NCBI GenBank assembly: GCA_027575765.1
Contig: JANBPT010000061.1
Coordinates: 1-64,000, forward strand
DNA length: 64,000 nucleotides
Source: Tieghemiomyces parasiticus
Taxonomy: Eukaryota; Kickxellomycota; Dimargaritomycetes; Dimargaritales; Dimargaritaceae
Direction: 5' to 3'
Shown: positions 4,519-8,200 of the stretch, piece after piece
Layout of the letters: each line of letters begins with the position of its first letter
Numbering within the stretch: the stretch's first letter is position 1
Translations under genes and position numbers: made by a program
The notes under the pieces: model-generated
What the model was told of the DNA's origin: nothing
Databases searched by the model: none
Seen by the model: only the letters and a program-made list of their open reading frames with translations

Positions 4519-5106
4519 GGCGATGTGTGCAGCTAGGCTGTGACGAGGCCGAGCGTATTGAGAAGACGACAAGGGACTTAACGTAGTGACTGCGGCGCAA
4601 GCCCGAATGCCTAGCTTACACGAACAAGCGGGCTTCGTGTGGGGGGGAAGGGTGGCTCGGGTCCGGATGAAATACAATAATGAGGACAGGCGACCTGCCG
4701 AGAAACCCCTTTGGTAGGACGGATACACGAAAAGGAATGGGTAGAGGCGGGGAATGTGAAAAGGCTAGGTACTGATGTGGATAGCAGATACTAGAACAGA
4801 AAGTAGCCCGTATGGCCAATGGGTTTGGGGTAAACAAACGCGGAGTGGGAAAGGGTAGCTAGTCTGTTGATTGGAGCTCAAGCGCTATTACATCCTCTGT
4901 GGGCTAGGCCTCCCATTAAATCCACTAGCCTGCATCGGGCCAAGGATCGCCAGCCTTAAAGAGGGGGAGGGGGTGGGGGAAGCACTCAGGGGTGCGAGGC
5001 GACCCGGCTTAAGCGGAGTTTCGATTTACTGTTATTTGCAAACGAGTTAGCACCGTGCAATGACCGATATCACGCCACCAGTGTAGTTTTCGCGGCACAT
5101 GTCCCG
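4519..5106. other. Spacer between PB1/SAM gene and Fanzor relic
   Basis: No gene seen. Presumed promoter of the minus-strand PB1/SAM gene. CpG frequency is normal here and drops abruptly just after 5106, marking the edge of the mobile-element relic. Confidence 0.4.
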
Positions 5107-5658
5107 TGAATTTGCATTTAAATGGAGGCTAATTTTGTGTTTAAAAAAGCTGAGCAGTTTGTGTGTGCATTTGCATTGGTGAACCTATGGCATAGTGAGA
5201 AATGTTAGCAGAATGGCAAAAGGTTGAGCCTATCAGTATGTGGTCTCACAGCAGGCCACAGTTATTCAATCCATTTCTTAAATGCAGCTTCTCTGCCCAG
5301 CCAACTCACCTTTAGGGTGCCTCCCCTCCATTAAATTGCATGGAGTGTGGTCCAAGTAGCTTGCTTTTGTCACATCTTAGCCCTGCAATAACAGGACTGG
5401 GAAGTTATGTATGGACCTGGTGGGGAATAGCCTTTATGCTGGCACTTCACCCATGGCTTCTGGTCAGCAGTAGTAGTAGTGGCCTTGTGCTTTGCAGCCT
5501 TAGTAGGTGCCAGATCACCACCACCACCATCACCCTGGGACTTAGTACACTGGAGCCACTCCAGAGTCTCACCATTGGCCTGGAAGCTCAAGAGGATGTG
5601 CCTGGAGTTGAACACTACTGCCATGTCCTGGTTCCACAGCTGTGAGCAAGATGGATCC

Positions 5659-5787
5659 TGTGTTGATACTAGGCCCAAGTCTAATACCATAACCAAAAGG
5701 CTATTCTACTATCACAGAATTTGTGGTTCTGAAATAGTAGACTTGGACTTTACCCTGGGATGATCTAATGTGGTGGTTCCCAATCAC
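5659..5787 (+). repeat. Left arm of about 125-bp inverted repeat
   Basis: This stretch matches the reverse complement of 5987-6115 with scattered, mostly transition-type differences. Shared blocks include CTAATACCAT, AAAAGGCTA, ACTATCACAGAATTT, GATGATCTAATGTGGTGG and TTCCCAATCAC. It sits between the Fanzor zinc-finger and the final RuvC motif and interrupts them. It may be one terminus of a nested element with terminal inverted repeats, or one copy of an inserted short element. Confidence 0.8.
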
Positions 5788-5986
5788 CACAGATCCCTAG
5801 CATCTTCCATGGACTTCAAACAATTTAGGTTTTTATCCCTTAAAAGCCCATGGCATTTTACTTCAGGATACTTTGCTCACTGCTATGGTCATGGATTGGG
5901 GACATGCTTAAAGGTCTCCAGGTGGTTGCAGCACTTGGGACAGGTCATGGGTGTGTGGTACTCATCCACCAGATGGGCCTTGTGTA

Positions 5987-6115
5987 GTGATTGGGAACCA
6001 CCACATTAGATCATCCCAAGGTGAAGTCCAAGTCTGCTATTACAGAACCATAAATTCTGTGATAGTAGAGTAGCCTTTTGGTATGGTATTAGACTTGGGC
6101 CTAATATCAGTACAC
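5987..6115 (-). repeat. Right arm of about 125-bp inverted repeat
   Basis: Partner of 5659-5787 in opposite orientation. On the minus strand its outer edge begins near ACAGTGTACTGATATTAGG. The roughly 200 bp between the arms (5788-5986) contain the Fanzor zinc-finger in the correct order and orientation, so the arms are not simply the two ends of an empty insertion. Confidence 0.8.
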
Positions 6116-7339
6116 TGTGTCTTGTAGCTCATTGTGTGGGATGGTTTGTATGTAGGGGCAGTCTGCAGAGTGGTCATTCCTGTGCTTCTTTCTTTGAGTG
6201 CTCTGGTCCCTCATGCTGTCAGCCTTGCACTTGTCCTTGAGCTCCACTGCACTGTCATTGGTGGAAACCCCATCAGCATCAGTCTGGCTTTGCTTGCAAC
6301 TAAGGTTCCTCTTAGTCTTGGGGGCCTTGAGTATGAATGATACAGACACCCCACCTGTCTGGATAGCCCTTAAGAACCTCCTGCCATGCTGGTCCTTGAA
6401 TACCTTGCAATGGAGGTCAAGAGCCACCCCCCCCCATATCTCTTTGATCAATGGCTCATTCTTGGATGCCCACTTTAAGATATGCTGGCAGAAGATCCAC
6501 ATATCTATGTGCAGGTGGCATGGCACCCAAGAACTCTGGAGAGGAAAGCACTGGGCTGACTTTGCCCCCGTCACCTCCAGGAACTTGTAGATCTCCTAAA
6601 ATGCCTCAAGATGCTTTTCTGGAGACTTCTTGGCATCATAATAAATGACATCCTCAGCAAACGCATAAGTGGTATCATACACTTAAAGGATTGGTAACAG
6701 CACAGTGAGAATGAGCTGCCCTTCTGGTGGGAGCTTGCTGCAATTGGGGCCTCTGTATCACAGTGCCTCCTTGACCAGGTGTGCTGGCCCCCAGGTCCTC
6801 TCCTCACAGGTATGGTGGAACTTGTGTTCATTACTGGTGGTCATTTCCTTGTGCAAAGCCTCCTTCCACTGGCACATGCTCATCAAGGTATTAACAGCAA
6901 ACTGGAAGTACTCACCAAACCACAGCTGGACATTGACCTTGTAGGCAGCCATGATGTTGGTACTGACATAAGCTGCCACCTGGGCCACGTTGCCATGTTT
7001 CCTAGGCTCAATGTTGGCAGCCTTTGTGTAGCTTTCAAGGTGTCCCTGAATGAGCACCCTAATGGCCTTGGTTGACAGCTTGACCTTCTCATGCATGAAC
7101 TTCCTCCCAGCCAGGCTGAGGAAGGCTTTGTCAATGGATGTCTGGCTGAAGAGCTCATTGGGGTTGAAGTCATGGTTCCTCTCTAGCTCATGGAGGAAAA
7201 TCCAGTGTGCCAGCTGGTATGTGTGCATTGTGAGAAAGTGGGTGGTTCACACCAGATCCCCCAGCAACTCCTGGTACTCCTGCTTCCACCTAACAGACCA
7301 CAGAGAGGTCTTGAGGATGCTGGTCTCGCCTTGGGCCAT

Positions 7340-8200
7340 CAATGGCGTAATAAAAAGTCTAGCAATTGCACAGCAAAGGGCGTGCTGAGCTCAAAGAAAA
7401 GGGAAGAGAGACATGTTGTGTAAGGAGGTAAAGTGGGGCACTAAGGGTATTAATTGCAGAAATTTTTACGTCTGACCTTGGTAGTGGCTCCTATTGTTTC
7501 TCTATTGCTGTTGGACTCTTCTGGTTCTTCTATGACCTTACTTTTTCTTGGTCATCTAGCCTTTGAGAGTAACCATCGGCCTTGCATATCCATATAGAGG
7601 CGCAACGCAGGACCCCCTATTTCTGGCGCAAATTGCGACGACGCATACCGGCTGGCCACAGCCCGTGGAAATAACGCGTCACACAAGACGCACAGTTGGC
7701 GAGTGGATAGCCCAAAGATCCCATCTCAGCAGGCGCTAAAGTAAAACTGCTGCTATGCGAGCACCTCTGCAAACTACAGTAGGCAGCCTGGCTCTTCCCG
7801 CCACTGTTCTTGTATCCTGCACACCTTACCTATCTCTGGGCGTAGCCGAGGCCCATCGGACGGTTAGTTTGGCCCCGGGGCTCTCTACATTCCCTGTAAC
7901 CTCTCCGTGCGGTACGTTGTAGCCGTCCTTATTGGGTCCACTAGCCTGCCTTCAGAGCTGTCCCGAAAACTCCGCCACCCGAGCCCATCTACTTGGTCCC
8001 ATCTGCCACTCGCTCTTTTCGCTTCGGGCTTTTCGTAACAGTTCGTCTAATCCCCCCGACCCTTATTATCTCCCCCTCCCTCCCCATCCTCCTTCCACCG
8101 GCCCCTCTTGTCACTGCATTAACCCTACCACCCCTCTAACCATCGCGCCCTCGCCGCTCACACTTTAGCATCCCATACCGTCCATACTCTCACCCCAACC
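7340..8200. other. Spacer between Fanzor relic and ARP1
   Basis: No gene seen. CpG returns to normal beyond about 7560. The pyrimidine-rich stretch at 8040-8190 directly precedes the ARP1 start codon and is probably promoter/leader. Confidence 0.4.

Follow-up and report, generated by a model that had tools for sequence, protein, structure and literature searches.

A Fanzor1 relic inside a transposable element with many gene-less copies in a fungal genome

The window, the whole 64,000-nucleotide stretch of DNA analysed here, carries on its minus strand a decayed Fanzor1 gene (7339-5373), recognised by sequence comparison with the solved Fanzor1 proteins. Ordinary fungal genes lie between 26599 and 57752 (glutathione S-transferase, a CBM21 protein, proline-tRNA ligase, phosphopantetheinyl transferase and Hid1), and three long frames between 15265 and 23729 gave no Pfam match at 0.001. 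The features of the Fanzor locus are as follows.

5027-7782, minus strand: entire element carrying Fanzor, with CTACTGTAGTTTGCA as left end at 7782 and ..TTTGCAAATAACAGTA as right end at 5027
7598-7782, minus strand: left ~185 bp common to gene-less elements, from alignment
6110-7339, minus strand: Fanzor block 1, 410 codons from the ATG at 7339, with in-frame stops at codons 31, 194, 219 and 248 only
5983-6114, minus strand: 133-bp TG..CA element, copy 2, 93% identical to copy 1, at the deletion breakpoint where block 1 stops
5931-5969, minus strand: VDEYHTPMTCPKC, RuvC-II glutamate and first zinc-finger cysteine pair, from the block 2 PDB alignment
5659-5791, plus strand: 133-bp TG..CA element, copy 1, with the 5-bp target duplication GATCC at 5654-5658 and 5792-5796
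5598-5645, minus strand: SQLWNQDMAVVFNSRH, RuvC-III region, aspartate kept, preceding R changed to Q
5373-5658, minus strand: C-terminal portion of the gene; 91 tail-only loci match its last ~75 codons
5201-5372, minus strand: noncoding stretch after the stop, 80-82% identical and nearly gap-free across most of its length between Fanzor subfamilies
5027-5118, minus strand: right-terminal 92 nt, predicted guide RNA scaffold site by analogy with Spizellomyces punctatus (PMC10432273)

The initial annotation had described about 410 minus-strand codons with four stops, and this description was confirmed at 7339-6110. In 1000 base shuffles of this interval the same frame contained 17.6 stops on average and 6 at minimum, and none had four or fewer. 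A chance open frame, in favour of which nothing speaks except the presence of stops, is refuted by these shuffles and by the E value of 3e-36 given below, and deserves practically no credence. The start at the ATG at 7339 was supported by the similar N-terminus of a Dichotomocladium elegans protein.

Block 2, which holds the RuvC-II glutamate, the zinc finger and the RuvC-III aspartate, lies in a different frame from block 1. It is a real second block with the CPKC and WNQDM motifs noticed initially, and its description needed correcting for the change of frame and for the 133-bp insertion that splits it. The RuvC-II pattern DE(Y/F).T is present as VDEYHT (5969-5931), which supplies the RuvC-II glutamate. 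At RuvC-III the window copy reads NQD instead of RD, with the aspartate kept and the arginine changed; the C935 copy reads NWD. The C4 zinc finger retains CPKC, and its second pair, LRCKNMSC in Parasitella, is LRDKNLNC here, indicating that one cysteine was lost in the window copy. The order of landmarks proposed at the outset holds as a Fanzor1 order, except that RAIQTGGVSVSF (6370-6335, minus strand) is not catalytic and the RuvC-I region is missing: the PDB alignment placed RAIQTGGVSVSF just upstream of RuvC-I, ruling it out as a catalytic motif.

The window copy is broken in several ways. Besides the four stops in block 1, block 2 also contains stops. The RuvC-I aspartate region (DPG/DPN) is absent, with the 133-bp element at 5983-6114 sitting at the breakpoint. 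Four sister copies keep RuvC-I, as IDPG in C858 and C729 and as IDLG in C587 and C1192, followed by GDW/GNW and DEYHT..C; none was found in the other eight copies inspected. The second 133-bp insertion (5659-5791) separates the zinc finger from RuvC-III and is absent from the C858 sister copy.

Comparison with solved structures identified the family. In a phmmer search of the PDB with block 1 (379 codons, X at stops), two distinct sequences came up at E up to 10: Fanzor 1 of Parasitella parasitica (3e-36, query 1-321) and that of Spizellomyces punctatus (4.5e-7). Block 2 matched the same two proteins (1.5e-17 and 1e-4), its alignment covering DEY..T..C..C and LWN.D, and its third and last PDB match was an unrelated receptor (0.011). 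The C858 sister copy aligned through the part missing in the window, pairing 'LPIDPG' with 'VLMDPG' of Parasitella, a stretch that alone is a weak match (9.8 bits). Profile searches, proposed as a check, gave nothing above the Pfam-A cut-off for the two window blocks, and PF07282 matched once in the whole genome, in the C134 sister copy and just at the cut-off. This profile covers TnpB as well, and its single match is what could be said for a relic of a bacterial TnpB or of another transposase in place of Fanzor1. We consider that reading very improbable: Fanzor1 was the best PDB match of both blocks by a wide margin, no other PDB chain matched better, and the only transposase-named PDB chain listed, 8hr5, scored 0.16. 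The proposal of a Fanzor relic was therefore upheld, and, judged by sequence comparison, the window locus is a genuine Fanzor1 relic.

A search for related proteins found only one above threshold, the Dichotomocladium elegans hypothetical protein BX666DRAFT_2117772 (P0001), and longer relatives were not found at E 0.001 among 1972 candidates. This 256-aa protein has a similar N-terminus and lacks internal parts; 93 of 145 residues are identical over three ungapped stretches picked by eye, and identity is 35% over the whole gapped alignment. Dimargaritales fungi parasitise Mucorales, and we considered horizontal transfer between them. It was set aside, since identity to Dichotomocladium is 64% over the stretches picked, close to the 60-70% that proline-tRNA ligase shows to Mucorales among the matches listed, a comparison that is no more than suggestive. 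Among the best 120 of 7994 matches to proline-tRNA ligase, the best-scoring fungal relative came from Dispira simplex (70% over the whole query); two plant proteins scored above it (identity 52 and 59%), and a few Kickxellomycotina sequences reached 71-72% over part of the query. Dispira belongs to the Dimargaritales, and this one gene, thin evidence as it is, points to a Dispira-like fungal host.

The gene lies inside an element of ~2.8 kb with defined ends. Its boundaries were set by aligning it with other Fanzor copies and with 16 gene-less ones, of which one has no matching left end and three have no clean right end; outside the boundaries the flanks diverge. Comparison with the gene-less copies gave CTACTGTATTTTGCAGAGG... 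as left end and ...CTCGTTTGCAAATAATAGTA as right end. The ends are imperfectly inverted (TACTGTATTTTGCA / TACTATTATTTGCA), with an inverted match of ~14 bp. TA stands at both tips, and a TA target duplication is plausible, not proved because no empty site was found. Of the 23 copies that match the next 18 bases exactly, 22 have a C ahead of the left TACTG; this base is similar to the motif side of a Fanzor target, or may simply belong to the element. No transposase was identified within the element. DDE_3 matched 39 places in the genome, none of them near those of the 117 left ends that were listed (compared by eye) except one nested in the C569 copy. There, at C569:22399-22587, a DDE_3 (Tc1/mariner-like) match below cut-off falls within a 413-aa open frame between the Fanzor pieces. 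The locus almost certainly represents a DNA transposon of ~2.8 kb that carries Fanzor1 between imperfect inverted ends and is now dead in the window.

We then asked how many copies the genome holds. Block 1 was found at 14 loci (31 matches, the window's own included). The initial annotation had allowed for intact copies elsewhere; none appeared, as 0/14 loci keep block 1 in one open frame in this assembly, read without modelling introns. Block 2 matched at least 104 loci: 11 at block-1 loci, at least 91 with the C-terminal tail only, and 2 other fragments. With as many as 3 mismatches allowed, the left end occurred 117 times, against 0 for a reversed-pattern control. The alignment of Fanzor copies leaves out L003, the second piece of the C134 copy. 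One and the same deletion, bridged by the 133-bp element, is common to the C465, C935 and C965 copies; it seems that this deleted form was itself moved or duplicated.

All 16 tail-only loci fetched were gene-less and about 1.2-1.3 kb long. They have the same ends as the Fanzor loci, no gene and many copies, as expected of ghost elements; 15/16 align at the left and 13/16 at the right. The right-end alignment leaves out L018 (right end misplaced) and L039, L045 and L055 (no clean right end). The consensus of 15 copies (L054 left out) is ~1.27 kb long and consists of a ~186-bp left end, ~512 bp of unrelated sequence and a ~570-bp right end; this larger form keeps the last ~75 Fanzor codons. A 0.57-kb form, lacking about half of the conserved noncoding stretch, showed one junction common to 7/7 copies fetched, a set selected for its short spacing. 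An exact TATATAG occurs in 10 of 15 aligned gene-less copies, at consensus ~650-700 in the unrelated inner part and ~100 bp before the Fanzor tail; an eleventh match (L049) lies in the flank, outside the element. This motif could be a promoter. We had considered the gene-less family as unreported, an idea dropped because ghost elements are described in PMC10432273.

The two 133-bp copies in the window have opposite orientations, so 5659-5791 and 5983-6114 read as an inverted repeat. They are ruled out as inverted repeats of the Fanzor element, being copies of a distinct 133-bp element that has 5-bp duplications of its own. Among the fully identical 133-bp copies examined, 16/16 showed perfect 5-bp target duplications; this TG...CA element is solo-LTR-like and probably recently active. 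It is present in 12 of the 14 Fanzor loci, often at deletion breakpoints (in C569 it lies in sequence between Fanzor pieces, and in C847 it is cut by the contig end), and in 0/16 of the gene-less loci fetched. Targeting or nesting in old repeats might account for this bias.

The assembly comprises two divergent haplotypes. Proline-tRNA ligase has a second copy at 99%, and Fanzor loci are paired by one or both flanks (window/C858, C587/C569, C424/C465, C911/C965 and C134/C457). For nine ghost sites, searches with the joined flanks matched a second contig in 9/9, at 87-96% for one flank or both. Both flanks lay on one contig in six, ~1.25 kb apart in four and 0.53-0.56 kb apart in two; at the C222 and C625 sites the ghost match adjoins the single flank found, and the ninth, L040, belongs to neither group. 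No empty counterpart was seen in the other haplotype among these nine sites, indicating that most of the tested ghost insertions predate haplotype separation. At two sites, C202 (L082) versus C1082 (L049) and C849 (L083) versus C1175 (L050), the haplotypes differ in form: one has the 1.27-kb element, the other the 0.57-kb element with its usual junction, close to a repeated GGCTGGGC. Either gene conversion or recurrent deletion could account for these pairs.

The right end was examined as the possible source of a guide RNA. Between Fanzor subfamilies, identity is 80-82% with gaps of at most 1.4% over alignment columns 101-255, from which 5201-5372 was derived by hand; it is 73-76% with 11-20% gaps over columns 256-400 and 79% with 1.6% gaps over the last 49 columns. 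Covariation gave no support for a guide-RNA fold at the right end, and consensus folds were weak. For five right ends taken singly, folding was not better than in shuffles (z from -0.91 to 0.31), and an 8-pair stem with a terminal hairpin did not outperform shuffles either. The covariation score of a 5-pair stem was reached in 18/500 shuffles, a weak result given the covariation program's warning about sequence relatedness. Rfam gave 0 matches at gathering scores on the window. In S. punctatus the scaffold covers the right repeat and the guide is flanking DNA (PMC10432273), and by analogy the guide RNA would have been made from the right end of the element.

The covariation result speaks for a reading in which Fanzor is a passenger and the gene-less elements are ordinary mariner-type MITEs, moved by a transposase alone and never providing a guide RNA. 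The TA at both tips agrees with it, as does the occurrence of the 0.57-kb form at several sites despite its loss of about half of the conserved noncoding stretch. Against it, guide-RNA scaffolds from four S. punctatus ghost loci were functional with Fanzor in human cells (PMC10432273), the C conserved at the left end looks like the side of a Fanzor target that bears the motif, and the survey of listed left ends by eye showed no matching DDE_3 transposase beyond the one nested in C569. We regard the passenger reading as a serious contender that falls somewhat short of an even chance.

What is known of the family suggests how a guided Fanzor element would have worked. The living Fanzor protein would have bound RNA from the right end, the tip of that RNA would have been the DNA just outside the element, and Fanzor would have cut matching DNA beside a short motif, thereby helping the element to persist. 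Gene-less copies may have been mobilised via the same ends by some transposase, perhaps with Fanzor acting in trans. In a more specific and rather unlikely scenario of collapse, ghosts would have spread with Fanzor cutting in trans via their own right-end guides (predicted motif 5'-CTA), and the spread would have ended when the last Fanzor copy broke, before the haplotypes separated.

These results add a Fanzor1 element with ghost copies in a fungus that appears Dispira-like (Dimargaritales), a case in which no open Fanzor copy was found and ghosts can still be counted. Whether Fanzor aids element spread, a question left open by Saito et al. (PMC10432273), could be tested by comparing how active ghosts are in relatives that have or lack a live Fanzor.

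Finally, we compared the element with known systems, as described in the cited reports. Parasitella parasitica Fanzor 1 (PDB 9cf0), the best solved match for block 1 (query 1-321) and block 2, aligns with the C858 sister copy at RuvC-I too; it has a cyclophilin-binding domain and, unlike the window relic, is intact and active (PMC11423790). In Spizellomyces punctatus, Saito et al. (2023, PMC10432273) counted 134 ghost loci devoid of the gene next to 42 loci with Fanzor; they also describe a conserved CA immediately beyond the left repeat, as well as Gypsy elements that had inserted into Fanzor loci. The present genome likewise shows ghost loci, conserved bases just beyond the left end and insertions of other elements at Fanzor loci, the C before TACTG being comparable to that CA. 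For SPu-1, putative TA duplications are reported, as are mariner-type Fanzor1 elements (Bao and Jurka 2013, PMC3627910); like the SPu-1/SpuFz1 element, ours has Fanzor1 between inverted ends, a putative TA duplication and no transposase found within the ends. The two differ in their inverted match (~14 bp and imperfect here, 30-33 bp in S. punctatus), in element size (~2.8 versus 2.1 kb), in ghost size (~1.27 and 0.57 kb versus about 550 nt) and in that no open-gene copy was found here. Since the literature already describes ghosts of the S. punctatus Fanzor element, the kind is known; with the Fanzor loci, ghosts and SPu-1 reported there (PMC10432273, PMC3627910), the present locus is a new, dead example of it.
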